Origin: a virus
Virus record (IMG/VR): IMGVR_UViG_3300028388_000772
Coordinates: 1-21,711 of that record
Direction: 5' to 3' (one strand)
Length of the DNA: 21,711 bases
The notes below the pieces were generated by a model that had not been told where the DNA came from, searched no databases, and saw nothing but the letters and a program-made list of their open reading frames with translations. Below are positions 1 to 21,711 of this stretch, one piece after another. The translations under genes were made by a program, and so were the position numbers. How positions within the stretch are numbered: the first letter of the stretch is position 1; each line of letters opens with the position of its first letter.

Positions 1-777
1 GATGATATAAGACCTGAACACAATAATGCAAAGTATCTGCAATCAGTAGTTGATACAGCTGTTGAATGGTGGTCGCCTTACTCACATTTGATTGATGTCA
101 TTGGTTACGGTAATCACGAAACCGGTGTAATTAAGTTTAAAGAGTATGATCCATTGCAAGGGTTTATAGATTTATTCAACGCTAAAAATAACAGCAACGT
201 TCAAAAAGGTGGTTATGGTGGTTGGTATCAAGTAGCCGGTGGCTCGGGGGGTTCTGGTGGTGGCGGTGGAGGCCGAGCCAATGTCGCTGGGGGTTCTGGG
301 ACATCCGGCCAGGGCTATGCCGGTGGACGCGCAGAAGATGGGAATACCAGTGGTCAAAATGCTGGCGGTGGAGGTGGCGGTGCTTCCCAGGCCGGAGCAG
401 ATGGAAACTACCCTAACGGTGGTGACGGCGGTGACGGTGTCGCTTCTTCTATTAGCGGCTCTAGTGTTACTCGCGCTGGTGGTGGTGGTGGTGGAACACA
501 GGACGGGACTGCTGGTGCTGGAGGTACTGGTGGCGGTGGTGTAGGTGGTCAGTCAACAACGCCCCCCGGAAGTGGGACAGCCAACACAGGTGGAGGCGGT
601 GGAGGTGCAGCCGATAGCACTACTGGCGGTAGTGGCGGTTCTGGGGTTGTTATTATTAAATACCCCGCGAGCAAAACACCTACAATCGGGCCGGGTCTAA
701 CCTCAACCACAACCACCGTCGGTAACTTTAAAGTGACCACGTTTACTGCTGGTTCTGACGACATTACGTTTGCATAG
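1..777 (+). CDS. Partial metallophosphoesterase fused in frame to a glycine-rich tail-fibre-type C-terminus
   Basis: The frame is open from the first base of the window, so the true start lies upstream; the TTG at 88 is only an internal codon. Residues 1-76 look like the middle of a calcineurin-like metallophosphoesterase, with the metal-binding GNHE motif at residues 37-40 (nt 109-120) followed by an IK..DPL segment and GGYGGW. From about residue 77 the protein becomes a long Gly/Ser/Ala tract (to about residue 213), then GVVIIKYP and a short beta-rich tail ending near SDDITFA, which is the usual C-terminus of phage glycine-rich fibre or adhesin proteins. The phosphoesterase normally continues for several tens of residues to a GHxH metal motif; that part is absent here. 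I see no stop or frameshift at the join. It may be a genuine fusion, a deletion between Gly-coding repeats, or an assembly chimera. Its position just before lysis genes suits a fibre gene. Confidence 0.7.
   Translation, partial: DDIRPEHNNAKYLQSVVDTAVEWWSPYSHLIDVIGYGNHETGVIKFKEYDPLQGFIDLFNAKNNSNVQKGGYGGWYQVAGGSGGSGGGGGGRANVAGGSGTSGQGYAGGRAEDGNTSGQNAGGGGGGASQAGADGNYPNGGDGGDGVASSISGSSVTRAGGGGGGTQDGTAGAGGTGGGGVGGQSTTPPGSGTANTGGGGGGAADSTTGGSGGSGVVIIKYPASKTPTIGPGLTSTTTTVGNFKVTTFTAGSDDITFA
238..657 (+). repeat. GGN-rich low-complexity tract encoding polyglycine segments
   Basis: This stretch is dominated by GGT/GGC/GGA glycine codons in clusters of three to six separated by short Ser/Ala/Thr/Asn segments. 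It causes open shadow frames on both strands that should not be annotated. Such tracts are prone to recombination and to short-read assembly collapse, which matters for judging the fusion in the host gene. Confidence 0.8.
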
Positions 778-785
778 GGAATACA

Positions 786-1073
786 ATGGCTCACTACGCT
801 TTTATTAACGACCACAACATTGTCACGCAAGTTATTGTGGGACGTGACGAGGACGACCTTGTTGAAGGCGTGACTTCGTGGGAGGAATATTACGGGGAGC
901 GTCACAATCAACGGTGTTTGCGCACGTCCTACAACACTCGCGCTGGCGAACACGTCCTCGGTGGTACTCCGTTCCGAGGCAACTATGCCGGGGTGGGATA
1001 TTCCTACGATGAAACACTTGACGCTTTCCTACCCCCAAAACCTCACGCTTCGTGGACGAAAGTTAAGCCATGA
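786..1073 (+). CDS. Small conserved phage protein next to the fibre gene
   Basis: This 95-residue protein begins with MAHYAFIN and V-T-Q-V-I-V and ends with the pattern GNYAGVGYSYDxxxDAFLPPKP..W. Short proteins of this build, with an N-terminal strand pair followed by YAGxGYxYD and PPKPYPSW-like ends, recur in marine phages near fibre or structural genes. No enzymatic motif is visible and the function is unknown. A purine-rich AGGGA lies about five bases before the ATG. The gene starts 8 bases after the fibre gene and its stop overlaps the endolysin start by 4 bases (ATGA), so it is co-translated with the lysis genes. A fibre-associated or fibre-assembly role is possible from position only. 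Confidence 0.75.
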   Translation: MAHYAFINDHNIVTQVIVGRDEDDLVEGVTSWEEYYGERHNQRCLRTSYNTRAGEHVLGGTPFRGNYAGVGYSYDETLDAFLPPKPHASWTKVKP

Positions 1074-1639
1074 TCCAGCTGTATAACCCATGGCCTGAGC
1101 CATATACGATTAACGCCCGGAGCCCTTACGGACCCAGGCGTCACCCCATTACAGGCAAAATGTCATTCCATCATGGAATTGACGTAGCCGCACCGACAGG
1201 AACACCGCTAATTGCTGGTGCTGACGGCACGGTTGCCCATAAAGGATCTGGTGCTTCGGGTGGTTACACTTTGCTTATTCGACACGCAGGTAACTGGCAC
1301 ACCGTGTATTACCATTTGCAGAAGCCGTCCCATCGGCATGTGGGTGAGCAGGTGAAAGCTGGCGATCTTGTCGCTCACGTGGGCAGTACAGGTCGGTCGA
1401 CAGGTCCTCATCTTCACCTCGAAGTCCGTCGTAGTAGAAAATGGGGTGACACGGAGGATCCTGAAAAGTTTTTGGTGGGTCCGTTCCGTTCACGTGCGAA
1501 CGCGGATAATGAGCCAATATCGTCGCCCGCGGATAGGCGTCCCCGTCGACGTGTGCGGATGCCGTCTTTTGGTATTAGTGGGCGTTTGAAAGCAATGGAT
1601 GTTCGTGCGGTGGCACGGTTTATGCGAGGCCGGAGATGA
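1070..1639 (+). CDS. M23-family peptidase endolysin
   Basis: This 189-residue protein is a zinc metallopeptidase of the LytM/lysostaphin (M23) type, which cuts peptide bridges of peptidoglycan. The diagnostic residues are all present: HxxxD at H34-D38 (HHGID), the middle His at H82 (YYHL), and the HxH pair at H114-H116 (TGPHLHLEV). The catalytic domain covers about residues 15-125. The remaining 60 residues are very basic (RRPRRRVR and RFMRGRR) and may bind the anionic wall or membrane; no separate cell-wall-binding domain is recognised. There is no signal peptide, so export would depend on a holin. The start overlaps the previous stop by 4 bases, and the next gene again overlaps by 4 bases. 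It is the clearest lysis enzyme of the window. A virion-associated role is less likely given the adjoining membrane proteins. Confidence 0.9.
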   Translation: MIQLYNPWPEPYTINARSPYGPRRHPITGKMSFHHGIDVAAPTGTPLIAGADGTVAHKGSGASGGYTLLIRHAGNWHTVYYHLQKPSHRHVGEQVKAGDLVAHVGSTGRSTGPHLHLEVRRSRKWGDTEDPEKFLVGPFRSRANADNEPISSPADRRPRRRVRMPSFGISGRLKAMDVRAVARFMRGRR

Positions 1640-1875
1640 CTGAAAACAACGGAACCGGAGGTGTTCGCATTACGACGAAAGATATTTTTGAGGAAGTGCA
1701 ACGCCAAGGCCGCCTGCTGGAAAAAATAGCTAATAGTTTGCCCGATACGGAGACTCAAGTGTCTGATCATGAGCAACGTTTGCGGAAACTCGAACAACGA
1801 ATGGGTTGGATTTTTGGTGGCCTCGGCCTCCTGTCGGCCCTTGTTGGCGTGTTTTCGTTCAGCGTAGGTCAATGA
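1636..1875 (+). CDS. Single-pass membrane protein with coiled coil, holin-accessory candidate
   Basis: This protein has 79 residues. Residues 16-56 are charged and heptad-like (FEEVQRQGRLLEKIANSL and HEQRLRKLEQR), so a coiled coil is likely. A single hydrophobic segment spans about residues 57-77 and ends one or two residues before the C-terminus. This N-out coiled coil plus C-terminal anchor layout is that of XhlA-like haemolysin or holin-accessory proteins, but I see no sequence motif that proves the family. Starts and stops overlap by ATGA on both sides, placing it firmly in the lysis operon. It could regulate pore formation or anchor the endolysin. Confidence 0.75.
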   Translation: MTENNGTGGVRITTKDIFEEVQRQGRLLEKIANSLPDTETQVSDHEQRLRKLEQRMGWIFGGLGLLSALVGVFSFSVGQ

Positions 1876-2105
1876 AACCTGACCCTCAAGACCGGTGGAA
1901 AGTGCGCCGTCGCCTCATTTTCGGCGCGGCTGTTTTTGGTGCGTTGATGATTCTTGCTGGCGGTGTTGGCTTGTTTGGTGACAAATTCACGGGCGAGTTA
2001 GTGTACGGCGGTGTTACAATTATTAGTGCGGTTTTGTCCGCATATGCAGGGTTTGCCACCTTTGACGATAAATGGCAAGGAAACGGAGAAAACCCCGATG
2101 GATGA
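1872..2105 (+). CDS. Two-helix membrane protein, holin-like
   Basis: This 77-residue protein is read from the ATG at 1872, chosen because it overlaps the previous stop as ATGA; an upstream extension to 1806 would run through the coding region of the neighbour. A short basic N-terminus (DRWKVRRR) precedes two hydrophobic segments, about residues 15-36 and 42-64, joined by a short turn (GDKFTGE), with an acidic polar C-terminus. This is the topology of class II holins. No family is recognised. With the next gene it forms a pair of two-helix proteins, which could be a holin and antiholin or two co-acting holins. Confidence 0.7.
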   Translation: MKPDPQDRWKVRRRLIFGAAVFGALMILAGGVGLFGDKFTGELVYGGVTIISAVLSAYAGFATFDDKWQGNGENPDG

Positions 2106-2355
2106 GTTTGAAATTGCGAAATGGTGGACGGCTGAACGTCGCGCCTGGCTGTACAAGGTCGCTGTTGCCGCAGTGCCTTTGATGATTGCTGTGGGTCTCG
2201 TGACCGGTGACATGGCTCAACTGATTTTGAACGTGCTGTCTGCCGTTCTGGGTGTGTCGGCAACGGGTATGGCGTTGACTAATGTGACGCCCGATAGCGT
2301 GTTTAAGATTGCTGTCGAGGTTGAAGAAGACGGTGACGGTAATCCTGACCAGTAA
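2098..2355 (+). CDS. Holin, two transmembrane helices
   Basis: This 85-residue protein starts at the ATG at 2098, which follows a GGAG about nine bases upstream and overlaps the previous gene by 8 bases. The N-terminus, with WWTAERRAWLYK, is followed by hydrophobic segments at about residues 18-36 and 39-62 and an acidic tail (VEVEEDGDGN). The pattern of a W-T-x-E-R-R-x-x-x-Y entry into the first helix, a short loop, then a V-L-G-V-x-x-x-x-x-A-L-T-N second helix resembles holins of actinobacterial phages, from memory of that family. Its role would be to make the membrane lesion that releases the M23 endolysin. It is the last gene before the terminator. Confidence 0.75.
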   Translation: MDEFEIAKWWTAERRAWLYKVAVAAVPLMIAVGLVTGDMAQLILNVLSAVLGVSATGMALTNVTPDSVFKIAVEVEEDGDGNPDQ

Positions 2356-2357
2356 TT

Positions 2358-2387
2358 AAAAAAGCCCCGGCAATCCGGGGCTTTTTT
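2358..2387. terminator. Bidirectional rho-independent terminator after the lysis genes
   Basis: A run of six A (2358-2363) is followed by GCCCCGG (2364-2370), a CAAT loop (2371-2374), CCGGGGC (2375-2381) and six T (2382-2387). The perfect 7-bp GC stem with A and T runs on both flanks works on either strand. It begins three bases after the holin stop and touches the stop of the small antisense ORF, so it can end convergent transcripts. Confidence 0.95.
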
Positions 2388-2464
2388 CACTGGCAGCTGT
2401 CACACATGAGCGCTTCCATTGGATCTACTGGACACTGGTATCCGTTAACGACATCGTTTTCCAT
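2387..2464 (-). CDS. Tiny antisense ORF, 25 residues, Cys-containing
   Basis: Read on the - strand, the ATG at 2464-2462 opens a 25-residue protein ending CDSCQ, with one earlier Cys in YQCPVDP. The three Cys (C11, C21, C24) suggest a small metal- or disulfide-bound peptide. Its stop codon directly abuts the bidirectional terminator, which is what a real convergent gene would look like. I have an impression that similar tiny CPVDP...CDSC peptides occur in aquatic phages, but this is from memory and not checked. There is no strong Shine-Dalgarno; GAAATGAG lies a few bases upstream. A forward 26-codon ORF covers the same bases (2406-2486) but has no protein-like features. Confidence 0.5.
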   Translation of the reverse strand: MENDVVNGYQCPVDPMEALMCDSCQ

Positions 2465-2478
2465 GTTTTACTCATTTC

Positions 2479-2489
2479 TACGCTAAACT
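2479..2489 (+). promoter_or_regulatory. Promoter-like motif TANNSTAAAMT, copy 1
   Basis: TACGCTAAACT sits in the gap upstream of the exonuclease gene, 15 bases before its ATG. The second half (TAAACT) fits a TANNNT -10 element, giving an inferred transcript start near 2496. No TTGACA-like -35 is visible at the normal distance. The same 11-base pattern occurs in three other intergenic gaps of the window. Confidence 0.4.
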
Positions 2490-2504
2490 TCTCGGTGGAG
2501 AATA

Positions 2505-3233
2505 ATGAAAATACTTTTCTTAGACCTTGAAACGTCACCCAATTTGGCTTACGTGTGGGGCCTTTGGCAACAGAACGTTTCGATCAACCAGATGGTTAAC
2601 TCGACAGAGGTTATCTGTTTTGGTGCCCGCTGGTATGGTCAGCGGAAAGTCCATTTTAGCTCAGTTCACCATGACGGTAAAGCTGAAATGCTTAAAGCTA
2701 TACATGAGCTTTTAGATGAGGCTGATGCTGTCGTGGGGTGGAATAGTGCCGCGTTTGATATGAAGCATTTGCGTCGTGAATTTGTGGAAAATGGTATGCA
2801 TCCGCCGAGCCCGACGAAAGATATTGATTTGATGCGGGTGGCGAAGCAACAGTTTAAGTTCCCGTCGAACAAGCTTGACTATGTGGCTCAAAAGCTTGGT
2901 GTGGGTAAGAAAGTGAAGCATTCGGGTTTTGAGTTGTGGGTTGGTGCGATGGCGGGCGAGGATAAAGCTTGGCGAGAAATGAAGAAGTACCAGATCCAGG
3001 ATGTCAATTTGCTTGTTGATTTGTATGAAAAGTTTTTGCCGTGGATTAAATCTCATCCGAACCATGCGATTGAGGGCATGTCGTGTGTGAACTGTGGTTC
3101 AGCGCATTTGCAGTCTCGTGGGGTGACGAAAACGACGACGGCCGTATATCAGCGGTATCAATGCCAGTCGTGTGGTCGGTGGATGCGTGACAGTAAATCA
3201 CTTATGACGAGTAAAATGAGGCCAGACAACTAG
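2505..3233 (+). CDS. DEDDy-type 3'-5' exonuclease (RNase H fold) with C-terminal zinc ribbon
   Basis: This 242-residue protein shows the three exonuclease motifs of the DnaQ-like superfamily: Exo I in FLDLETSP (D7, E9), Exo II in VGWNSAAFD (N80, D85), and Exo III YxxxD in KYQIQDV (Y162, D166). Residues 194-223 hold two Cys pairs, CVNC (194, 197) and CQSC (220, 223), spaced as a zinc ribbon, probably for nucleic-acid binding. The start has a good GGTGGAG about four bases upstream. There is no polymerase domain, so it is a stand-alone nuclease. It lies between the lysis and packaging genes, apart from where replication genes would be expected; a role in genome end processing, host DNA degradation or recombination is possible but not shown by sequence. 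Confidence 0.85.
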   Translation: MKILFLDLETSPNLAYVWGLWQQNVSINQMVNSTEVICFGARWYGQRKVHFSSVHHDGKAEMLKAIHELLDEADAVVGWNSAAFDMKHLRREFVENGMHPPSPTKDIDLMRVAKQQFKFPSNKLDYVAQKLGVGKKVKHSGFELWVGAMAGEDKAWREMKKYQIQDVNLLVDLYEKFLPWIKSHPNHAIEGMSCVNCGSAHLQSRGVTKTTTAVYQRYQCQSCGRWMRDSKSLMTSKMRPDN

Positions 3234-3242
3234 GAGGCAGTT

Positions 3243-3599
3243 GTGACTATTCCTACTGGCGCGATGGGCGGTAGTCCGTTCCGTGACGTGTCCGAATTGT
3301 CGGATAATCCGACAGGTGGTTTTTTGCCGGATGAGAATGAGAAACCTCCGGCACAAGTTGTTGACGATTTCCACACGTATAGCGATGTGGATGCTCGTCA
3401 AGAATCGCAGCATCATACGTTGGGTGCGAACCCGACGCAGGCTTCCCCTGGGGATCATACGCATGATGGTGGTGATTCGGTGTTGCTGTTGGAGGGTTTT
3501 ACGATTAGTGGGCAGCGTACGACGGATGCGTGGGCGCAGTCGGTGAATGCTATGCTTGTCCGTCTTGGCGCAACCGATAATTCGACTGCGGCTCCGTAA
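3243..3599 (+). CDS. Hypothetical small protein upstream of terminase
   Basis: This 118-residue protein starts at GTG 3243, supported by AGGAGG about six bases upstream. It is polar and Pro/Gly/Asp-rich at the N-terminus. The centre has HHTLGANPTQASPGDHTHDGGDS, and then a short hydrophobic LLLEGF stretch. The GDHTH signature is a recurring element in phage virion and tail proteins, where it often marks a compact beta turn, so a structural role is suggested. No helix-turn-helix is visible, so it is not convincing as a small terminase despite its position. Its stop overlaps the terminase ATG by one base (TAATG). Confidence 0.7.
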   Translation: MTIPTGAMGGSPFRDVSELSDNPTGGFLPDENEKPPAQVVDDFHTYSDVDARQESQHHTLGANPTQASPGDHTHDGGDSVLLLEGFTISGQRTTDAWAQSVNAMLVRLGATDNSTAAP

Positions 3600-5188
3600 T
3601 GGTTTCGAAGCAGAGGCAACCTACGGCTAGTGAGCTGTTGCAGCTTGCTGTCGCTGAGCTTGATCAGAGTATTCATAAACCGAATATCCTGAATTATGGC
3701 GAGAAGGATTACCCGGAACAGTTACGTTTTCACCAATCTAAAGCACGCGGACGGTTTATTTCTGGAGGTAACCGTGGAGGAAAAACCGACGCCGAAGTCG
3801 TTGAGTCTATCTGGTGGGCAACTGATACTCACCCATATCTTGAGCGGCCAGCTTATTGGGGCAGTGGACCGGTACAGCTCCGTTTTGTGGTCGTCGATGT
3901 AGCGAAAGGTATCGAGCAGATTATTCTGCCGAAAATGAAGCGGTGGATTCCGCGTTCGTATCTTGTCGATGGTGATTGGACGAAAAGCTGGGATAGTACG
4001 AACTATATTTTGACGTTTGATAATGGTTCGACGATTGATTTTGTCACGTGGGGTATGGACATGATGAAACTGGGTGGTGTGCCCAGGCATGGCATTTTCT
4101 TTGATGAGGAGCCACCTCAGCATATTTTTAACGAGTCGATGATGCGTCTAATCGATTACAACGGTTTTTGGGTGATTGCGGCCACTCCGACGAAGGGTAT
4201 GGGGTGGACGTTTGATTTGCTGTGGGAGCCTGCCGTTGAAGGTAAGGCGGAAGATATTGACACGTTTACCTTGTCGGCTGAGCAGAATCCGTATATCGAA
4301 GCTGACGACGACGACATGAATTTTTACATGATGGGTATGGATAAAGAGGAGCGTGAGATCCGTGAAAAGGGTAGTTTCGTGGCTCGTAGTGGTTTGGTGT
4401 TTCCTGATATTGCTCAAAATACTGAACGCTACATTGTAGATTTTAGTCCGGCAGATGTGCCGCCAACGTGGGCAATTTATGCTTCTGTCGACCACGGGTT
4501 AAATAACCCGACAGCGTGGCTGTGGCATGCGGTGTCGCCACAGGGTGACATTGTGACGTTTGCGGAGCATTACCAGTCAAATATGGTTGTTGCGGAGCAT
4601 GCGAATTTTGTGAAGCAACGTGAAATATCGTGGGGTAAAAAGCCGGACGATATCGAGCGGATGGGTGATCCGGCGATGCGGCAACGTAATGGTGTGACGG
4701 GTACAAGCATTGTGCAGGAGTATGCGTTGAATGACGTGTTTATCAATGTAGAGAATATCCCGCACGATGTGATGATCGGTATTGAAAAAATGCAGGCATA
4801 TTTTCGTATTCGTAACGACAGTTATTGGGGGCTTGACCGGCCTAAATGGGTGATTTCTCGTAACTGCGCAAACTTTATTCGGGAAATGAAGAAGCTTCGG
4901 TGGGCGTCGTACAGTTCGGACAAAATGTCGTACGAAATGAATAAACAGGAAGTGGTGCATAAGAAAGATGACCACGCTTTTGACTCTGCCCGTTATTTTG
5001 CGACGACACGCCCCGATTTGAAGCCGTATGTGGACAGGTTGGCTACAAAAGACAAGCCAACTACGCTAAGCTATGAGGAGATGTGGTTGAAGCTGCGTAA
5101 CGATCCTGATGTGACGTTTGCAGATGATCGCAGCACAGAGGACGGTCCTTTGTGGATTACTGAAGTAGATTATGGAGCGTTAGCATAA
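3599..5188 (+). CDS. terL: Terminase large subunit
   Basis: This 529-residue protein packages DNA into the prohead. The ATPase half has a Walker A variant GGNRGGKT (residues 56-63) and Walker B IFFDEE (166-171), followed by the coupling motif ATPTKG (about 195-200). The nuclease half has the RNase H-like acidic set: D298 in YASVDHG, D357 in MGDPAM, and the DDHAFDSARY segment (D458, D462). Length and motif spacing are complete. Start is the ATG at 3599, coupled to the previous stop. The next gene also starts by TAATG overlap. The downstream order (portal, scaffold, capsid) fits. The packaging strategy (cos, pac or terminal repeats) cannot be told from this alone. Confidence 0.97.
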   Translation: MVSKQRQPTASELLQLAVAELDQSIHKPNILNYGEKDYPEQLRFHQSKARGRFISGGNRGGKTDAEVVESIWWATDTHPYLERPAYWGSGPVQLRFVVVDVAKGIEQIILPKMKRWIPRSYLVDGDWTKSWDSTNYILTFDNGSTIDFVTWGMDMMKLGGVPRHGIFFDEEPPQHIFNESMMRLIDYNGFWVIAATPTKGMGWTFDLLWEPAVEGKAEDIDTFTLSAEQNPYIEADDDDMNFYMMGMDKEEREIREKGSFVARSGLVFPDIAQNTERYIVDFSPADVPPTWAIYASVDHGLNNPTAWLWHAVSPQGDIVTFAEHYQSNMVVAEHANFVKQREISWGKKPDDIERMGDPAMRQRNGVTGTSIVQEYALNDVFINVENIPHDVMIGIEKMQAYFRIRNDSYWGLDRPKWVISRNCANFIREMKKLRWASYSSDKMSYEMNKQEVVHKKDDHAFDSARYFATTRPDLKPYVDRLATKDKPTTLSYEEMWLKLRNDPDVTFADDRSTEDGPLWITEVDYGALA

Positions 5189-5715
5189 TGAGCCGATTTC
5201 ATCTTGTGCAGGCACCTCCGCGTGAGCCCGGACATTGTTGGATCACAAAAACAGCTGTAGGTCCTTTTATCGACACTGGCATTGACTTGAGTGTGAAAGT
5301 TATTGACCGTGGACGTATCTACATTTCGATTGATGCGTTGCGGGAAATGGCGCAAGTCGCTGGCCTGTTTGACGAGGAAGAACCAAAAACTGTCGGGCTA
5401 CAGCGTAAGAAGTGGTACGACGAAGGATATAACGACGCAATGAAGGAGTTTTCAAATGAATCTGTTGATCGTTTTATTGAGCACATTAGCCGTAATTCTG
5501 CTGGGGTTGCTGGTAACGCAGCAATGGTGGCATCAGAGGGTCATTTCACGACTGCTGGAGCAGCAGTCCCTGAACCTGAAGACGCTACAGCAGAGTCACA
5601 ACCAGTCATTGAAGAATCTAACGGATTTGAACAGCAAAGCGCAGAACCTGCTGTCGTCGAAGGATCCGTTAGCGTTCCAGCAGATTCAAGCAATGAACGA
5701 AACTACCGACTATAG
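5188..5715 (+). CDS. Hypothetical protein with folded N-terminus and disordered acidic tail
   Basis: This 175-residue protein starts on the A of the terminase stop (TAATG). Residues 1-60 look folded (MSRFHLVQAPP, GHCWITKT, GPFIDTGIDL, GRIYISIDALREMAQVAGL). From about residue 90 it becomes Ala/Glu/Ser-rich and low in complexity. The C-terminal 87 codons overlap a second gene in another frame that encodes a membrane coiled-coil protein. The N-terminal block looks conserved in type; the tail may be under weak constraint because the other frame governs the bases. The position between terminase and portal is common for small accessory genes. Function unknown. Confidence 0.75.
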   Translation: MSRFHLVQAPPREPGHCWITKTAVGPFIDTGIDLSVKVIDRGRIYISIDALREMAQVAGLFDEEEPKTVGLQRKKWYDEGYNDAMKEFSNESVDRFIEHISRNSAGVAGNAAMVASEGHFTTAGAAVPEPEDATAESQPVIEESNGFEQQSAEPAVVEGSVSVPADSSNERNYRL

Positions 5716-5872
5716 TGGATATAGCGATTATGATCCGTCGGACGAGGCAGAGCTAGACCGTATCGCTAAACGTAACCCGAACTTGGCAGCAGGAGAAGAC
5801 ATAGATGGCCGAGAAGCCCGACAGTTATTCGCAGAACTTACAGGCATCGATCCAGAGTTCTACGGTAATTAA
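5456..5872 (+). CDS. Membrane-anchored coiled-coil protein overlapping both neighbours
   Basis: This 138-residue protein has an N-terminal hydrophobic helix (about residues 2-22, LLIVLLSTLAVILLGLLV), then a Gln/Leu/Asn-rich amphipathic stretch (about 30-68) likely to be a coiled coil, then an acidic segment ending ELTGIDPEFYGN. AAGGAG lies about nine bases before the ATG, supporting independent initiation. It overlaps the previous gene by 260 bases and the portal gene by 68 bases, both in other frames. A frame that keeps a clean membrane helix plus heptad-like region over such a length is unlikely by chance. It could be a spanin-like or virion membrane protein; this is inference only. Confidence 0.7.
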   Translation: MNLLIVLLSTLAVILLGLLVTQQWWHQRVISRLLEQQSLNLKTLQQSHNQSLKNLTDLNSKAQNLLSSKDPLAFQQIQAMNETTDYSGYSDYDPSDEAELDRIAKRNPNLAAGEDIDGREARQLFAELTGIDPEFYGN

Positions 5873-7991
5873 ATTACCCGAGGACGGGCTTAACATTGAT
5901 AAATACCGCCAGTCGAAAGAGGCGCAGAATCTTGTAGCGTGGGTGCAGTCTGAGTGGACGAAAGCGAAGACTGCCCGTAGCCAAAAGCAACTGCAGTGGT
6001 TTAACAACATGTCCATGTTTTATGGACACCAGTGGGTTGAACAGACTCGTGGTAATTTCCCGGAGGATCATCGGGATAAGTTGTTTACGCCTCGTAAGCC
6101 GTATTATCACCAGCGTAAAACGATTAACCGTGTCAGGTCGTATGTGCGGTGGGAAATGTCGAAAATGTTGTCGTCGTTTCCTACTGCGCAGGCGATTCCT
6201 TCGTCTAGTGAGGATGAAGACCAGAGGGCTGCGTTTGCTGCTGAGCAGGCGTGGACTTCGATTAGTGAGTCGAAGAAACTGCGTCACCACATGTCTCGTG
6301 CGGTTTGGTGGACGATTGTTACCGGCAACGGGTTTTTGAAGACGCATTGGGATACGACTTGTATGGACCGTGTGTCTGGCGAAATGGGCGACATTAAATA
6401 TGGGCATGTGACGCCGTTTCACTTGTTTGTGCCGGATATTCGTGAGCAGGATATTGAAGACCAGCCGTTTGTGATTAACGCTTACACTAAACCTGTCGAA
6501 TGGGCTCAGCATTATTTCGCCGCTGAGCTGGGTGATATCAAGCTTTCACCGTCGACGAGTGCGGCGAACCAGATTCTTGACGAGGCTTACCTTAACTTGG
6601 GTAACAGTAAAGCCCCAGACAGCGTGATTGTGTATGAGACGTGGGTGAAGCCGGGTGCCCACAAGATGATGCCTAACGGTGGGGTCATTATCACTGTTGA
6701 CGACGTGCTGATTAGTGTTTACAAAGAAGGTTTCCCGTACCAGCACAACATGTATCCGTTTACTAAGTTTGAGCACATTCCGACAGCAACGTTTTATGCT
6801 GACAGCCCGATTGTGGACTTGTCGCAGTTGCAGAAAGAATACAACTCATTGCGTTCAGAAATCAGTGAGGCTGGTCGTCGTATGGCTAAACCTCAGCTGA
6901 TTGCCCCGCAGGGCAGTATTGTTCCATCGAAACTGACGAACGAACCTGGTCTGGTCATTCAATACAAGCCTGGTATGAATCCTCCGCAACCGATGCCTTT
7001 ACAGCCGTTGCCACAGTATTACTTGGATCAGCAGGATCGTGTGTTGAATGACTGGATTGACATTTCTGGTGAACGTGAAGTATCGCGTGGCGATACACCT
7101 CCGGGTGTGACATCTGGTACTGCAATTAGCTATTTGCAGGAAGCGTCTAACCAGTATTTGACTCCGCAGTTCCAAAGCATTGAATCGGGCGTGGAAAAGA
7201 TTGCAACGCAGACGATTGAGTTGTTTGTCCAATATGTGGACATTCCTCGTAAGATTCGCACTGTCGGAGCTGATGGGGCGTTTGACACGATGTTGCTGCG
7301 TGGTGCTGATATTGCGTCGGGTACGGATGTTCGTATTGAGCCTGGTTCGTCGTATGCGAAGTCTAAAGCTGCTCAAGAGGCTCGTGTGATGGACATGTTT
7401 GCTGTGGGCATTATTGACCAGCCGACAGCGCTGAAGCTGCTTGAAGTGGGCGGTGTGCAGAAGATTGCGGACACGTTGAATGTGGCGGAGCGTAAGGCTC
7501 AGCGTGAAAACATTAAGATGAAGATGTTGACGCCGATGGAAATCGAGCAGGCCCGCATGCAGGCTATGCAGGAAATGATGGCGCAGTTGCCGCCAGAGGC
7601 TATGCAGGATCCTGAAATTATGGCTGAAATTGAAAACATGCCTGCACCGCCGATGATTCCTGTCGACGATTTCGACATGCATGAGATTCACATTGAAACG
7701 CATAACCGGTTCCGTATGTCGCAAGAGTACGAAATTTTGCCGGAAGAAGTTAAGGCACAGTTCGCGTCACATGTGGCAGAACATGAGAGAATTGTTCAGC
7801 AGAAACAGTTAATGAACTTCTTGGAGATGATTCCGGGGGACGGTTCGGAAGCGGGCGGCGCTCCTATGGGCGGAGACAGCATGGAAGTGCCTATTCCTGG
7901 CCCAGAGGCAGGTCCAGGCGCTACAATGGCTCCTAACGGAGCAGTACCCGATATGACCCCCGAGCAAGGAGTGGAAGATGGCCGACTTTGA
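5805..7991 (+). CDS. Portal protein
   Basis: This 728-residue protein forms the portal ring through which DNA enters and leaves the head. The N-terminal region has the WVQSEWTKAK...QLQWFNNMSMFYGHQW pattern, followed by NRVRSYVRWEMSKML and GNGFLKTHWD, all typical of large portals of podovirus-type phages. The central part includes a YADSPIVDLSQLQKEYN helix and GVTSGTAISYLQE. From about residue 585 it turns Met/Glu/Gln/Pro-rich, matching a helical barrel plus flexible tail. The start at 5805 has AGGAG about nine bases upstream and lies inside the previous gene. It overlaps the next gene by 14 bases. Position right after terminase and before scaffold and capsid confirms the call. Confidence 0.92.
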   Translation: MAEKPDSYSQNLQASIQSSTVIKLPEDGLNIDKYRQSKEAQNLVAWVQSEWTKAKTARSQKQLQWFNNMSMFYGHQWVEQTRGNFPEDHRDKLFTPRKPYYHQRKTINRVRSYVRWEMSKMLSSFPTAQAIPSSSEDEDQRAAFAAEQAWTSISESKKLRHHMSRAVWWTIVTGNGFLKTHWDTTCMDRVSGEMGDIKYGHVTPFHLFVPDIREQDIEDQPFVINAYTKPVEWAQHYFAAELGDIKLSPSTSAANQILDEAYLNLGNSKAPDSVIVYETWVKPGAHKMMPNGGVIITVDDVLISVYKEGFPYQHNMYPFTKFEHIPTATFYADSPIVDLSQLQKEYNSLRSEISEAGRRMAKPQLIAPQGSIVPSKLTNEPGLVIQYKPGMNPPQPMPLQPLPQYYLDQQDRVLNDWIDISGEREVSRGDTPPGVTSGTAISYLQEASNQYLTPQFQSIESGVEKIATQTIELFVQYVDIPRKIRTVGADGAFDTMLLRGADIASGTDVRIEPGSSYAKSKAAQEARVMDMFAVGIIDQPTALKLLEVGGVQKIADTLNVAERKAQRENIKMKMLTPMEIEQARMQAMQEMMAQLPPEAMQDPEIMAEIENMPAPPMIPVDDFDMHEIHIETHNRFRMSQEYEILPEEVKAQFASHVAEHERIVQQKQLMNFLEMIPGDGSEAGGAPMGGDSMEVPIPGPEAGPGATMAPNGAVPDMTPEQGVEDGRL

Positions 7992-8178
7992 TGTGATTGC
8001 GGACACGACGCCGCAGTTGGAGTTTGCGCCGACTCGTAACTATGGTCGTAAGACTATTAGCGAGTTGAAGACTGAGCTTCAGGCGAAAGATGACACGACG
8101 TACACCGATGCAGCCATCCTTGAGATGACGTACAACGATTTGGTGAACGCTATTCGTGTGACACCTGACGCAGAGTAA
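7978..8178 (+). CDS. Small hypothetical protein after the portal
   Basis: This 66-residue acidic protein starts at ATG 7978, preceded by AAGGAG about six bases upstream, and overlaps the portal stop by 14 bases. The C-terminal half (ISELKTELQAKDD and AAILEMTYNDLVNAIRV) looks like two short helices. No motif is recognised. Translational coupling to the portal suggests a head-assembly or head-tail accessory role. It ends the packaging operon before a promoter-like gap. Confidence 0.7.
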   Translation: MADFDVIADTTPQLEFAPTRNYGRKTISELKTELQAKDDTTYTDAAILEMTYNDLVNAIRVTPDAE

Positions 8179-8194
8179 CAAACTTATAACTAAA

Positions 8195-8205
8195 TACAGT
8201 AAACT
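8195..8205 (+). promoter_or_regulatory. Promoter-like motif TANNSTAAAMT, copy 2
   Basis: TACAGTAAACT lies in the 78-base gap before the scaffold gene. The TAAACT half would give a transcript start near 8212 and a leader of about 45 bases. That leader contains a G/C-rich inverted sequence (8222-8235) and a strong AAGGAG before the scaffold ATG. The gap also has an A/T-rich stretch (TTATAACTAAATA) just upstream. A promoter here would drive scaffold and capsid, the proteins needed in greatest amount. Confidence 0.45.
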
Positions 8206-8256
8206 AGAAACCAAACAGCTAGGGCCCCCTGGGGGTACGGCGAAAAGGAGTATGTA

Positions 8257-9108
8257 ATGGACGAAGCTGCAGGTACAGAGGTTGACACTTCGACGGAAGT
8301 TCAAGAGCCTTCAGGGCCGGTAGAAACAGCGGAACCTACCGCTGATGTCGAAACTGACACATCATCGGTGAATCCCGCTTGGGAATCCGTACGTACAAAA
8401 CTCGATCCTGTGAGTTTTCATGCGATCGAAGACGAACTGAAGAAATGGGACAAGTCCGCAGAATCGCGTATTTCGTCGCTTAACCAGCAACTTAAGCAGT
8501 ATAACGAGCTTGGGTCGCCGGAGCAGCTGCAAACATACGCTTCTATTGCTCAGAAGCTTGATACTGAGCCGGAAACTGTTTACAACGCTCTCGGTGAGTT
8601 TTTGAAGCAAAATGGTCGAATGCCCGAAACTGAGCAAGAAATGCAGGACGCGGTAGACGATCAGGAAGACGCAGAGTCTGAAGAGAATCCTTTGGATCCT
8701 CGTATTGCGCAGTTGGAACAACAGCAGCAGCAATTACAGGAGTTCCTTGCTCAGCAGGAGCAGGTGAAAATCCAGCAGGAAGCTGACCAGGCTTTAGATC
8801 AGGAAATCCAGGAACTTCGACAGCAGATGCCTGACTTCACGGAAGATGATGTGAAGGAAGTGTTGATGCGGGCGGCGTTCCAGCTTCAGAGCGGCAACCA
8901 GAAGGTAAAACTTGCTGATGTGGCTCAGGAGTACATGGATAAGACAGTAAACCGAATTCGCGCAGTACCGCGCCCAGGAGATTCGGCCCCGCGTCTACTT
9001 CCAACATCTGGTGGTGTCCCCAACGGACAGCAGCAGGCCCCGTTGGGCAAGATGTCAAGGACGGATGTGCAAGATTACATTGCAGCATCTTTGCAGCAGG
9101 GTAGGTAA
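8257..9108 (+). CDS. Capsid scaffold protein
   Basis: This 283-residue protein lies just before the capsid gene. It is acidic in the first 40 residues, helical in the middle, and strongly Gln/Glu-rich with coiled-coil character (about 150-190, including a five-Gln run), and it ends with a short basic-helical segment KMSRTDVQDYIAASLQQ. This composition and position are those of scaffold proteins, which guide capsid protein assembly and then leave or are degraded. The AAGGAG at 8245-8250 and ATG at 8257 make the start secure. No protease motif is visible in it, and no separate prohead protease gene is seen nearby. Confidence 0.88.
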   Translation: MDEAAGTEVDTSTEVQEPSGPVETAEPTADVETDTSSVNPAWESVRTKLDPVSFHAIEDELKKWDKSAESRISSLNQQLKQYNELGSPEQLQTYASIAQKLDTEPETVYNALGEFLKQNGRMPETEQEMQDAVDDQEDAESEENPLDPRIAQLEQQQQQLQEFLAQQEQVKIQQEADQALDQEIQELRQQMPDFTEDDVKEVLMRAAFQLQSGNQKVKLADVAQEYMDKTVNRIRAVPRPGDSAPRLLPTSGGVPNGQQQAPLGKMSRTDVQDYIAASLQQGR

Positions 9109-9145: not shown

Positions 9146-10366
9146 ATGCCTGCAACCCTTGCAACCATTGAGTCTTACCTCAAGGAGGTGTACCAGGGAC
9201 GTATCCGCGAGCAGCTGAACGATGAAATCGTTGCGCTGAAGCGTATTACTCGCAGTGGCTCTGGTGTCACCAACGAAACTGGTGGTAAGTATGTTACGTT
9301 CCCGATCCACACCCGCCGTAACAGCGGTATTGGATCGCGTTACGAGTCTGAGGCTCTGCCGACCCCCGGTCAGCAGGGGCACGCTGCGGCTCGTATCGGC
9401 CTGAAATACGCTTACGGTGGAGTTCAGTTGACTGGTCAGGCTATCAGCCTGTCGGACACTGACGCCAAAGCGTTTGCTAAGGCTCTGGATACTGAGGTCG
9501 AAGGTCTTAAGAACGACCTGAAGAAAGACATGAACCGTCAGGTGTACGGTACCGGTAACGGTGCTGTGGCTGTCGCTTCTGGTGCTGAGACTGGACAGGT
9601 TATCCCTGTTTACGACGCTCGCCTGTTCCAGATTGGTATGGTGATTGACACTCAGACTGGTACTACCGTGGACAACGAAGACCTCGTTGTGACTGCTGTG
9701 GACTTGACTGCTGGTGCCAACACTGTGACTGTTTCCGGTACTATCGGAACTTCTACCGCCGACGGGGACATTCTGGTCCGTGCCGGTTCTGGTGTGGGTG
9801 CTTCCGGTAACCGTGAACTTACCGGTCTGGCCGCTATCATCAGCGACTCGGGTACTCTGTACAACATTGACCCGTCGACTGAGCCCGAGTGGAAAGCAAC
9901 CGTTGACTCTAACGGTGGCACCAACCGCGCACTGTCGGAGTCTCTGATGATTCAGATGACCGATGACATCCGTGTGAAGGGTGGTTCGACCTCCCTGATC
10001 CTGCAGTCGCTTGGTGTTCGCCGGGCGTACTTTAACCTTCTGTCGCAGCTCCGTCAGACGGTTAACACGCAGGAGTTCACTGGTGGATTCAGCGGTCTGG
10101 CGTTCACCACTGACCGGGGTGAAATCCCTGTCGTGGCTGACCCGGATGCTCCGCTGAACAAGCAGTGGTACATCAACGAGGACGCGGTGACTTACTACCG
10201 CGACGAGGACTGGCACTTCATCGACCGTGACGGTTCGATGTGGAAGCAGGTCCGCGACTCGAACGGTGACTACGACGCTTACTACGCTCGTATGGTGGAA
10301 TACCACGAGCTGGGTACTGACCGTCGTAACACCCACGGTGTAATTGAGGACATTACCGAAGCCTAG
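9146..10366 (+). CDS. Major capsid protein, HK97 fold
   Basis: This 406-residue protein is the main shell subunit. The N-terminal helix (ESYLKEVYQGRIREQLND) leads to a beta segment around KYVTFPIHTRRNSGIGSRYESE, a long spine-helix region (about 103-135), and a C-terminal region with SLILQSLGVRRAYFNLL and FSGLAFTTDRGEIPVVAD. Residues about 155-216 form a beta-rich insertion (VIDTQTG, LVVTAVD, NTVTVSGT, DILVRAGS), as in capsid proteins with an added barrel domain. Codon use differs from the neighbours: C-ending codons for Tyr, Asn and Asp and CTG for Leu are much preferred, as expected of a very highly expressed gene. AAAGGAA precedes the ATG. A strong hairpin follows the stop. Confidence 0.93.
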   Translation: MPATLATIESYLKEVYQGRIREQLNDEIVALKRITRSGSGVTNETGGKYVTFPIHTRRNSGIGSRYESEALPTPGQQGHAAARIGLKYAYGGVQLTGQAISLSDTDAKAFAKALDTEVEGLKNDLKKDMNRQVYGTGNGAVAVASGAETGQVIPVYDARLFQIGMVIDTQTGTTVDNEDLVVTAVDLTAGANTVTVSGTIGTSTADGDILVRAGSGVGASGNRELTGLAAIISDSGTLYNIDPSTEPEWKATVDSNGGTNRALSESLMIQMTDDIRVKGGSTSLILQSLGVRRAYFNLLSQLRQTVNTQEFTGGFSGLAFTTDRGEIPVVADPDAPLNKQWYINEDAVTYYRDEDWHFIDRDGSMWKQVRDSNGDYDAYYARMVEYHELGTDRRNTHGVIEDITEA

Positions 10367-10960: not shown

Positions 10961-11509
10961 GTGCAAGATAAGATTGTTTTTTTCCAGTCGGCGTCTGAAC
11001 TGCCTGAGGGTTTGTCTCTTGCTGACTATGAGCACCAGTTTTATACGACGAATGCTGGTAAGGAGCTTCTTACTGTCGAAATCGAAGATCTTGGCGACGG
11101 TAACGCTATTGTTTACGATGCAACTGTGGGGGCTTGGAAAAATGGCGCTGGTGCTGTAGGCCCAGAAGGTCCTGAGGGTCCGGCTGGCCCTACGGGTCCG
11201 CAGGGTCCCGCTGGCGCAACAGGTGCTACTGGTCCGCAAGGCCCGCAGGGTGAGACTGGGCCTGCTGGTGCTGATTCGACGGTTCCCGGCCCGGAAGGAC
11301 CCCAAGGCCCGCAGGGTGAGACAGGAGCGCAGGGTCCGACAGGTCCGCAAGGCCCGGAGGGCGACACTGGTCCTCAAGGGCCACAAGGTGTCCAAGGCGA
11401 GCAGGGTGATCCTGGCGTGGTAGCTGCTACTTCTCCGCTAACTTATGACAGCGGGACCCAAACTGTCGCGTTGGGGGCTACCACGTGGGGGCAATTAGCT
11501 GGCTCGTAA
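10961..11509 (+). CDS. Collagen-like virion protein
   Basis: This 182-residue protein starts at GTG 10961, with TAGGAG about five bases upstream. Residues 1-31 share LPEGLSxxDYxHxFYxxN with the preceding gene's product at identical positions. Residues 32-63 are a short linker domain ([18 protein letters not shown]). Gly-X-Y triplets run from G64 to G152, rich in Pro at X and Gln or Glu-Pro pairs, with one break (GADSTVPG at 103-110). The C-terminus ([22 protein letters not shown]) is a short beta segment that may start or cap the triple helix. Such proteins form trimeric fibres on phage heads or tails. Bacteria do not hydroxylate proline, so stability would rest on charge pairs and Pro content. 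Confidence 0.85.
11237..11322 (+). repeat. Direct repeats inside the collagen-like gene
   Basis: The 20 bases at 11237-11256 recur exactly at 11303-11322, and a 15-base part at 11231-11245 recurs from about 11343. They encode the PQGPQGET triplet unit. Unequal exchange between such units would change fibre length in steps of three residues. Confidence 0.75.
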
Positions 11510-17175: not shown

Positions 17176-20100
17176 GTGGTTGAGAAACGTCAGGACGCCT
17201 TTACAGAATACGTAAAAAGCCGTCAAAATCAGACTGGCGATATTGGCGTTAGTTTTAGTCCTTATGCGGGCGGTGTAAGTGGTGGTGCTCAAAAACCGCA
17301 GGAACGCGGCTGGTTGGGCACTCTTGTCGATTTTCTTAATACTGGTGTATATGCGGGAACTACGCAACTTAACCGCATCATGGACATTCCACAGAATGTA
17401 GAAAAGATCCAGCAAAAAGCTGAGGCGGGCGACACTGGCGGAGCGGTTCTCGATTCGATTGCTACTGTTGGTGGTGTTATCCAAGCTCCGATTCGTGGTG
17501 CGACGACTCCTATTCGCCGCGTTCTTGGCCAAGAAATCCAAGAAGGCGAAGACGACACGTATGAAGCCATTATTGAACGCGGTGTCGATATGGCTAACGC
17601 TGGAAACCCTAACTACGTTGACGTGGAAGACAATGTAAATCGGTGGGGTAAAGCTGGTGTTGGTTTAGCTTTAGATATTGGTCTTGACCCGTTGACTTAT
17701 GCAACGTTTGGTGCGTTGGGTGCTGCAAAACTTGCCACTCGTGGTGGGGCTGCTGCAGCAAAAACGGCGGAAGAAATTGCTGAAAATGCTAACAAAATTC
17801 CGACACCTACTCAAGCGTTAGCTAAGGATCTGCCGGAAGCTGCCGCATTGCCGGAACTTGGGGCGGCACAGCGACTTAACATTCCTGGGACAGGCGTTCC
17901 TAAAGTCCCTGCAGACACTCCGCGGATCACCGCCAACGAGGGTGCCGACAACATGCCTGTCAACAACATTGCAGAAACGGTCGCTAAAGCCGCTGACGAC
18001 GATGTTCTCAATAGCCGCCGTGTCGAAGAAATCGCTAACGAGCAAGTTAGCAAAGCTGTCGATAGCAAAATTGTTCGAGACAATAAAGGCCAACAGATTA
18101 ACCTCCGCGGTGGCTTAGAAAGTTTCTTTAACTTCTTAAAGAAAGCGACACCTAAAGGTTCTGCATCGAAACTTACCGGCACGCTGGGTTCGTTTATTAA
18201 ATTGCTTGATGACGATATTGCCAAGATTGGTGGTTCGGTCCGTCTTGAAGAAGCAATCCCCGGCTATGTGGCGGAAACTATTGAGGGTGCTGCTGCAAAG
18301 ATTGCTCCGACAGTTGAAGGTGCTTTGCGTCAATACCAGCAGGTGCAGAAAGTTAACACTCCGGCTGCTCGGGCTATCCGCGAAGCTATTGAGACTCGTG
18401 TGTTGACACCGCTGCAGGCACGGTATAACAGCGCTGTGCAGGCGGGTAAGAATGTTACTGCGTTTGGTACTCCCCGCACCGCTCGGGATGCTGCTTTGCA
18501 AGCTTCTGAGGCGTCTGCTGCTGAGATGGTGGCAACGAACTTACGCCGTTTGACGGAGGGTTCGAGAGCCCGTGGTGTGGCGCTTATGGGTGAGGATTTG
18601 TTTAACGCCATTTCTAATATGCAGGCTAACGATCTTGCCCCGATTTTGGATGATCTTGATTTGTTGTTGCGTTCTGACGGTGTGGTAAAAGATATTGCGC
18701 CGTTGCTGCAGGGCGACGTGTCGTCTCAGTTCTTGAAACTGTTTGACATTGATAATGCGATGTATTCGGCGGCGAAGCTTGATGTTGCTAAGCGGTTGGA
18801 GGATGTCACTCAGGGAGCACCTAAGAGTACGCTAGACGAGGCTTTGGATGTTGCCGACGAATCAACGTTGGCTGCTGATGAGCTGTCTGACGCACTTGCA
18901 GCTTTTGGTATTGCACCCACTCGATTTAGTTTCTTGCGTAATGAACAAAACTTTGACGAAGTTGTATCAATGTATACGGCAGCTGTCGAGGAAGCAGCAA
19001 AAGCGGCAAAACTTAATTTTCTCGACGAAGGCTTGTTGAAAAAACGCGGCTATGTTTTTTGGACCGACAACGGTGTTCCCCGTACCGAAAACATTTTTGG
19101 TGAGGGTAAAGGTATTCTGCGCAATCAAATTTCTACGTATGGGCAGTTTAATTACATTCTTGCAGCAGCAAAGAAGATCCAAGAACGTTTCTTAAAAGCA
19201 CCGTTTACTAGCAAACTGTTTCCCGAGCAACGAGCTAGTTTGAAAGAAGCGTTGACTCTTGCGGCTATGCGCACAATGGAAAAAACACTTGAAGCTAAAG
19301 GTGTGCCAATCACAATGGACATGAAACTTGTCAAGGATGGCGCTTCTCAATTCCGTAATTTGCGTTTTAGCCGAGTGTACGACGAGTTGGCGAAAAACGA
19401 CAGGTTGCGCACGTCTTTGCGTTTCGCATTGTTTAACCCTAAAACTGGTCTGCCTTTCACTAAATTAATGGATGGTGTAATGACTGCCGTGTCTGGAGGC
19501 ACTAAGGACGAAGTGCTTGCAGTTCTGCGCTCTGTCGAAACCCGTAACGGTGTCCGCGTATTTGATCCGAAAACGGGTAAAACGAGCTACCAAACAGGGA
19601 AAACTATTCCCAACTTTTTCTCTGATCCTAAAGCGACAGCAAAGTTTGGTCGGACCTCCTTTAACTCAGGCAAAGTAAGCGACGACATTGCCCAAGCAAT
19701 TGTCGATAGCCGAGCAGCTTTTGACGACATTTCTGAGATTTACGCCAAAGAGTACCGTACTCGCGGAATGGCTGAAGCCGAAGCCGTATCAGCAACTGTT
19801 GGCGAAATCGTTATGAAGATGCTGAACGACCCCACTAAAGTTGCACAAACTGGTCTCGCTATTGCAAAGTCTGGCCGCATGGTGGGCGACACGGTAGAAA
19901 CTATCGGTGACATGACTAACCTGGGCATGGTGCTAGGCAATGCTCGGGTCCAAGCTAGCCTCGGCACAAACTTTAAAGGCAGTGCAGAAGCAATGGTTGA
20001 TACTGCGGAAGCGGTGGCTAAACGTGATCCTGAGGCTGTGTCGAAAGCGCAGACGAAAGCTAACGAGCTTGACGATGAAATTGTGCAGGGTGCAGATCAA

Positions 20101-21711
20101 GCAGCTAAGCAGGCTGTGGAAGACGTGTTAGCTGGCCGTGTGACTGTGCAGAACCAAAAGCTAGTTGATGAAGTTGTGGGCGAGGCGGTTGATCACGCAA
20201 ACGACGCATATAAAGCATGGACAACTCGTGGCTACGCCAGTATTAAAGCAGGCATTGCTCGGGCCTTGAACCCACTTAACAAATTCTTTAATGTTAACCG
20301 TGGCATGAATGCGGACAACCTGCTGTACGTGTCTCAAATGTTTAGAGGCCAAGAAAATCTACACCACGCTTTTCACAAAGAGTTGTTTGAACCAATTAAC
20401 CGGCTCGGCAAAAAATACAATGGTTACGTTGACGACAGCACCACAATTTTGCAGGCAGCCTGGAATGCGATTCGTGGTGGCTATCAAGCTCCCGGTGTTG
20501 CGGGCCAAGCACAAAAAGAGCTAACACCGTTTGTCGGTAAATTCTTTAACTTGGACGGTGATCCGGCTAACTCTCTTATGGGTGCCGCAATTATCCGCGG
20601 CGGTGGAAACTTGGATCGCATTAACCAAGTAATGGCAAGCAAGCGTGTGCTTGAAACGACAGCAGATAGTGTGCCTTTAACACCCGACGAGTATTTTGAT
20701 TTGGGCAAAATTGTCGAGGAACTTGGACCCAGTGCAAGCGCTCAAGACATTACACGAGCTTTGGGTGAACAGTGGAAGACGTGGGATGTCCGCGACCCCG
20801 TATTGTTTTTGGATCGCATGACTCGTGCAACAACGCAGATTATTGGCGAAGTTGGGTACGTTAGCAAGATGCTGGATGTTTCCCAAACATTGGGTCTTGC
20901 GAGCAAAACTCCTAGAAAAGGTTTTGTTAAATTACAGCCTGAAACTAATGTCACCCTGTCGGCTCACATCAGCGGCGAATGGTTTGTTGATCCCGAAGTG
21001 GCCGAAGCTTTTACTAACTTAAGTAAGCATATGGATGAAATTGGCCGCACAGGCGTATCAAAGATTGAGCGTCAAATTGACGAATTTACTGACGCCTTCA
21101 AATATGGTGCTACGCAGGCTCGGCTTGGCCACCACACCCGTAACTTTGCGGGTGGTTTGTCAATGACGGGTATGGCTCAAGGTATTAAACATTTTGACAA
21201 GGCGTTTAAAGAATCGTTAAAAATTACACCTAAAGCTAGCAACATTCAGTTGACTGATCGTATAGGTACTCAAGCTATCCAGGATGTTGACTATCTTGCA
21301 ATGCTGACGCGGCTTGACGAGCCTTTGCGTCGTACAGTAAATAATGCTGACGAATCTGCTCGGGTTGTTCACAAAGGGTCAAAACGCAGCATTACTGAGG
21401 GTGAGTTGGTTGATGCTATTGCTCGTTACGGTATTGACCCGCCAGTTGCTGCTGCTGAATCGTTTGCCACGTTAGGTACGGCACAGGGTCGAGTAGGTCG
21501 TTACACTCAAAAACTTTTGACTTTTGCCAGCATTGGTTTGGCTTCTCGGGGTGGGCGATTTGAAAAGTTTTGGACGGGGCTTTCGCAAGCACAAGACCAC
21601 ACGAACCGTAATCACATGTTTATTCAATATGTGATGCAAGCTGTTGATGGCCAAAAAATGTCTAGGGGTATTGGTAAAACAGTTAAATTTGATTTCAGTA
21701 AAGATGACGTG
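17176..21711 (+). CDS. Giant ejection-type virion protein, 3' end beyond the window
   Basis: The GTG at 17176 follows AAGGAG at 17165-17170. The frame stays open for all 1512 codons to the window end, with no stop. The N-terminus has GWLGTLVDFLNTGVYAG (residues 45-61) and then ALDIGLDPLTYATFGA (about 165-180). Patterns of this type, a short amphipathic L-x-D-x-L-x-x-G helix and an LDPxTY stretch, recur at the start of very large phage internal proteins. Most of the rest is helical with Ala/Lys/Asp/Glu bias. Residues 1318-1327 read GHHTRNFAGG, resembling the FHxRNxxGN element of such proteins, and the last residues visible are FDFSKDDV, which in comparable proteins precedes a PFYTW-like motif. 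No lysozyme, polymerase or nuclease motif is recognised. It likely enters the host cell wall with the DNA; the end and any extra domains lie outside. Confidence 0.75.
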   Translation, partial: MVEKRQDAFTEYVKSRQNQTGDIGVSFSPYAGGVSGGAQKPQERGWLGTLVDFLNTGVYAGTTQLNRIMDIPQNVEKIQQKAEAGDTGGAVLDSIATVGGVIQAPIRGATTPIRRVLGQEIQEGEDDTYEAIIERGVDMANAGNPNYVDVEDNVNRWGKAGVGLALDIGLDPLTYATFGALGAAKLATRGGAAAAKTAEEIAENANKIPTPTQALAKDLPEAAALPELGAAQRLNIPGTGVPKVPADTPRITANEGADNMPVNNIAETVAKAADDDVLNSRRVEEIANEQVSKAVDSKIVRDNKGQQINLRGGLESFFNFLKKATPKGSASKLTGTLGSFIKLLDDDIAKIGGSVRLEEAIPGYVAETIEGAAAKIAPTVEGALRQYQQVQKVNTPAARAIREAIETRVLTPLQARYNSAVQAGKNVTAFGTPRTARDAALQASEASAAEMVATNLRRLTEGSRARGVALMGEDLFNAISNMQANDLAPILDDLDLLLRSDGVVKDIAPLLQGDVSSQFLKLFDIDNAMYSAAKLDVAKRLEDVTQGAPKSTLDEALDVADESTLAADELSDALAAFGIAPTRFSFLRNEQNFDEVVSMYTAAVEEAAKAAKLNFLDEGLLKKRGYVFWTDNGVPRTENIFGEGKGILRNQISTYGQFNYILAAAKKIQERFLKAPFTSKLFPEQRASLKEALTLAAMRTMEKTLEAKGVPITMDMKLVKDGASQFRNLRFSRVYDELAKNDRLRTSLRFALFNPKTGLPFTKLMDGVMTAVSGGTKDEVLAVLRSVETRNGVRVFDPKTGKTSYQTGKTIPNFFSDPKATAKFGRTSFNSGKVSDDIAQAIVDSRAAFDDISEIYAKEYRTRGMAEAEAVSATVGEIVMKMLNDPTKVAQTGLAIAKSGRMVGDTVETIGDMTNLGMVLGNARVQASLGTNFKGSAEAMVDTAEAVAKRDPEAVSKAQTKANELDDEIVQGADQAAKQAVEDVLAGRVTVQNQKLVDEVVGEAVDHANDAYKAWTTRGYASIKAGIARALNPLNKFFNVNRGMNADNLLYVSQMFRGQENLHHAFHKELFEPINRLGKKYNGYVDDSTTILQAAWNAIRGGYQAPGVAGQAQKELTPFVGKFFNLDGDPANSLMGAAIIRGGGNLDRINQVMASKRVLETTADSVPLTPDEYFDLGKIVEELGPSASAQDITRALGEQWKTWDVRDPVLFLDRMTRATTQIIGEVGYVSKMLDVSQTLGLASKTPRKGFVKLQPETNVTLSAHISGEWFVDPEVAEAFTNLSKHMDEIGRTGVSKIERQIDEFTDAFKYGATQARLGHHTRNFAGGLSMTGMAQGIKHFDKAFKESLKITPKASNIQLTDRIGTQAIQDVDYLAMLTRLDEPLRRTVNNADESARVVHKGSKRSITEGELVDAIARYGIDPPVAAAESFATLGTAQGRVGRYTQKLLTFASIGLASRGGRFEKFWTGLSQAQDHTNRNHMFIQYVMQAVDGQKMSRGIGKTVKFDFSKDDV

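Follow-up and report, generated by a model that had tools for sequence, protein, structure and literature searches.

The window analysed here, a linear virus record, has a length of 21,711 bases, and its first gene on the plus strand, ORF 1-777, reads as an enzyme fused in frame to an adhesin. Very probably this gene does not encode a fusion protein but is a technical chimera, in which two unrelated phage genes were misjoined at a short DNA word common to both; the apparent enzyme-fibre fusion is almost certainly a data error and not new biology. ORF 1-777 is a single open frame that is left open by the left contig edge. In it, a calcineurin-like metallophosphoesterase (MPE) segment of 78 residues is followed by the motif GGYGGWY and then by a Gly_rich_2 tail fibre, of which the final ~180 residues are present (Table 1). 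The translation starts with DDIRPEHNNAKYLQ...VIGYGNHETGVIKFKEYDPLQGFIDLFNAKNNSNVQKGGYGGWYQV, continues with AGGSGGSGGGGGGRANVAGGSG... and has the C-terminal end GGSGVVIIKYPASKTPTIGPGLTSTTTTVGNFKVTTFTAGSDDITFA. An earlier sequence-only reading had reported the motifs GNHE (109-120) and GGYGGWY (208-228) in one frame with a glycine-rich turn. Both coordinates proved exact, and the glycine-rich stretch starts directly after GGYGGWYQV. It had also noted that the GHxH metal motif of the enzyme is missing, and the motif is indeed absent throughout 1-777 because the frame leaves the MPE sequence ~60 residues ahead of it.

Table 1. Features at the left end of the window.
Feature	Position	Strand	Remarks
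MPE gene, internal fragment	1..207	+	corresponds to about residues 87-154 in the homologue L001 (296 aa), GNHE included; left limit, contig edge; right limit, join
Join, GGTGGTTATGGTGGTTGGTAT (GGYGGWY)	208..228	+	word fits both gene families
Gly_rich_2 / phrog_2295 tail fibre, C-terminal ~180 residues	229..777	+	N-terminal ~130 residues missing
Small phrog_7759 protein	786..1073	+	3' of the fibre gene in relatives too

A search of viral contigs with residues 1-78 gave 354 relatives, and identity is 68-87% in the best 80. At the DNA level the enzyme half aligns with one of these loci, L001, over exactly 1-228 with 77.6% identity and no gap (E 4e-47), a similarity well above chance. In the best 80 of the 354 relatives the segment equivalent to residues 1-78 lies in the middle part of proteins of ~295 residues, and about 20 residues past GGYGGW these proteins continue with HGSGGGG(V/I)VT(R/K)G, with small variations, followed by GH(I/V)H. 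All 80 frames running from GNHE to GGYGGW were checked; none that is long enough to judge leaves the MPE pattern after GGYGGW, and the only relatives among them without GHxH are those cut by their own contig end. A Pfam search with the 78-aa fragment alone gave no match, and the fragment is identified as MPE through its full-length relatives, which matched phrog_7339 in 13 of 13 alignment rows and PF00149 in 8 of 13 (best E 3e-7). The metal-binding motif GNHE of PF00149 is invariant in the relatives' alignment, as is GGYGGW in all 13 rows. The N-terminal DxH and GD motifs, which appear as SDIHWD and NGDFF in the relatives, have their position upstream of base 1 and hence off the contig, while the C-terminal H and GHxH metal motifs of PF00149 are absent in 1-777 and present in the relatives untruncated by contig ends. 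The family itself, to which L001:4657-5544 and about 350 further loci in viral contigs belong, is widespread and highly conserved, with HGSGGGG(V/I)VT and GH(I/V)H as recurrent motifs; it occurs in contigs up to 113 kb and is only weakly recognised by Pfam.

The second half belongs to a different gene. Residues ~63-221 matched PF21722 (Gly_rich_2) with 31.9 bits, over the Pfam curated cut-off of 24.3 bits, and residues 70-243 matched phrog_2295 (E 1.1e-26). The PF21722 match spans profile positions 73-225 only; the N-terminal positions 1-72 of 226 are replaced by MPE sequence, and ORF 1-777 does not hold a full-length Gly_rich_2 domain. The fibre C-terminal part starts at about residue 79. The fibres of the relatives L081, L085, L088 and L089 are ~300-330 residues long, and their first ~130 residues are fibre sequence as well, starting with MALDFP..., followed by VVAGGGGGG... 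and then by a TVTVGAGGAG-like stretch and SVF.xITSxGGGGGG. In the same four relatives the fibre gene is followed by the phrog_7759 gene, an order that anchors the fibre half to the phage of the window. When the fibre half was compared at protein level with annotated phage records, nothing matched, probably as a result of low-complexity filtering of the sequence. In a profile search of solved structures the only matches were gp41-5 constructs, which we took as spurious. The 44.8-kb phage record L108 contains eight Gly_rich_2 matches, several large fibre frames among them.

The two families meet at a word that both possess. The 18-nt sequence GGTGGTTATGGTGGTTGG (208-225) occurs verbatim in the MPE locus L046 and in the fibre loci L175, L176, L180 and L204, and these four fibres carry GGGYGGW at the column where the fibre half of the window begins. 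At the same column the fibre L221 has GGGYGGWYNGAGGSSGGSGGGGG (GGGYGGWY), compared to GGYGGWYQVAGGSGGSGGGGGG in the window. When 72 distinct MPE genes were compared with 138 distinct fibre genes, 208 of the 213 15-mers common to both groups lay at GGYGGW or HGSGGGG; thus, the join is located at one of only two sites where the families look alike at the DNA level. Since both proteins have the same motif in the same frame, a join at this word is in frame automatically. The open frame is all that speaks for a functional two-domain protein, in which the N-terminal half of a phosphoesterase would be combined with a glycine-rich receptor-binding tip. Such a protein is extremely improbable, as its catalytic fold would be cut ahead of the C-terminal metal motifs, all 80 closest relatives (the best 80 of 354) are plain MPEs and the fibre relatives are devoid of MPE sequence. 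The suggestion of the sequence-only reading that the join, if real, would tie an enzyme to an adhesin was therefore not borne out: the relatives are full enzymes with GHxH on the one side and fibres with their own N-terminus on the other. The same reading had named a full enzyme C-terminus with GHxH in related genomes as evidence against a real join, and the relatives carry the full enzyme with this motif.

The two sides of the join are mismatched in composition and in phylogenetic context. At 36% GC, 1-228 is among the lowest 0.03% of all window segments of this length (median 50%). GC content is 31-34% in the closest MPE loci and about 50% in most of the close relatives on the fibre side; in three fibre relatives, the stretch of 228 nt preceding the join column has 57-59%. 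Codon-usage likelihood of 1-228 was not an outlier (-1.07 versus -1.01 for the window genes, sd 0.11); since it did not separate the segment from these genes, only GC content was used as compositional evidence. The MPE profile found no match in 16 records of fibre-side relatives, five of them of 41-45 kb, and was positive in three control records. Conversely, Gly_rich_2 was not detected in 16 MPE-bearing records of up to 113 kb, and the same search was positive in six fibre records. As the records may be fragments, this lack of co-occurrence is suggestive rather than absolute.

Outside its left end the contig looks sound, since from 1.6 kb on it is colinear with L081, a single alignment over 1595-9004 giving 83% DNA identity. 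The nearest relatives of the terminase are those of Microbacterium phage Shocker (50% identity) and of Arthrobacter phages, and the phage of the window is therefore probably an actinophage. Further genes of the window include a stand-alone DNA polymerase exonuclease subunit (2505-3233; phrog_403, PF13482), with the M23 endolysin region on one side and the terminase on the other, and, a short distance 3' of the SU10-like major capsid gene (9146-10366), a collagen-like protein with GPQGPxG repeats (10961-11509; PF01391). A 1512-residue open frame (17176-21711) without Pfam or PHROG match runs off the right contig end.

Exact and near-exact searches of viral contigs for the MPE half and for the junction found nothing, and neither a parent MPE nor a fibre with identical DNA turned up in the viral collection, a result that, like the inconspicuous codon usage of 1-228, counts against the technical chimera. 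A degenerate pattern leading from GGYGGW to polyglycine matched 18 contigs, none of which had GNHE upstream of it. Nearly all of these 18 matches are glycine-rich fibre-type ORFs; in L205 the frame read stops at once. The MPE-fibre junction was thus absent from all other viral contigs searched. These results also bear on illegitimate recombination between co-infecting phages at the GGYGGW word, which would have placed an MPE fragment ahead of a fibre C-terminus, probably in a minority dead-end molecule. In favour of such an event, recombination could make use of the 18-nt word just as assembly could, and the frame stays open. Nevertheless, we consider it unlikely: its product would be devoid of the H and GHxH metal motifs of the enzyme and of the N-terminal part of the fibre, none of the records checked contained both families, their GC contexts differ strongly, and with no second instance seen the product would be unique among the sequences examined. 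That recombination at this word gave rise to a real in-frame fusion of an MPE segment and a glycine-rich fibre tip in a phage is very unlikely. If true, it would suggest that glycine-rich coding words are recombination points for swapping fibre ends.

We infer a technical cause for the join rather than real recombination. In the proposed chimera, the left 207-228 bases would derive from a different, low-GC phage with a ~295-aa MPE, and the GGT-rich word at 208-228, which encodes GGYGGWY in both proteins, would have linked this piece to the broken fibre gene of the window's phage. The assembler may have joined the two in its graph, or templates may have been switched when the library was amplified; the data do not discriminate between these routes. 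Only 228 nt separate the join from the contig end, a distance that would correspond to about one short-read pair. Presumably the phage of origin has an intact MPE gene, and the true first ~130 residues of the fibre would be encoded on sequence outside the contig. An assembly error at GGT-rich DNA had been put forward by the sequence-only reading as the other option, and the occurrence of the GGT-rich join word verbatim in both families favours it, albeit indirectly.

Two gene calls are corrected accordingly: the MPE should not be ascribed to the phage of the window, and the fibre gene is 5'-incomplete. Beyond this record, a widespread viral phosphoesterase has matches of 15-21 nt to glycine-rich fibre genes at the words coding for GGYGGW and HGSGGGG. 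They constitute a hazard for viral assemblies made from short reads, in which false fusions of enzyme and adhesin could start from such matches.

Compared to known genes, each half of ORF 1-777 is a truncated member of its family. Among the viral MPEs (phrog_7339; PF00149 in 8 of 13 alignment rows), L001:4657-5544 is 87% identical over residues 1-78 and has GNHE and GGYGGW in common with the window, whereas the window's enzyme sequence ends ahead of HGSGGGG and GHxH and lacks the N-terminus, which lies beyond the contig edge. The Gly_rich_2 / phrog_2295 fibres L088:6452-7444, L085:7017-7988 and L221 share with the window the glycine-rich C-terminal block, GGSGVVIIKYP, the ending IGxGLTSTTTT..FKVTTFTAGSDDI and the downstream phrog_7759 gene. 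In contrast to these fibres, the window is devoid of the N-terminal ~130 residues and carries MPE sequence in their place.
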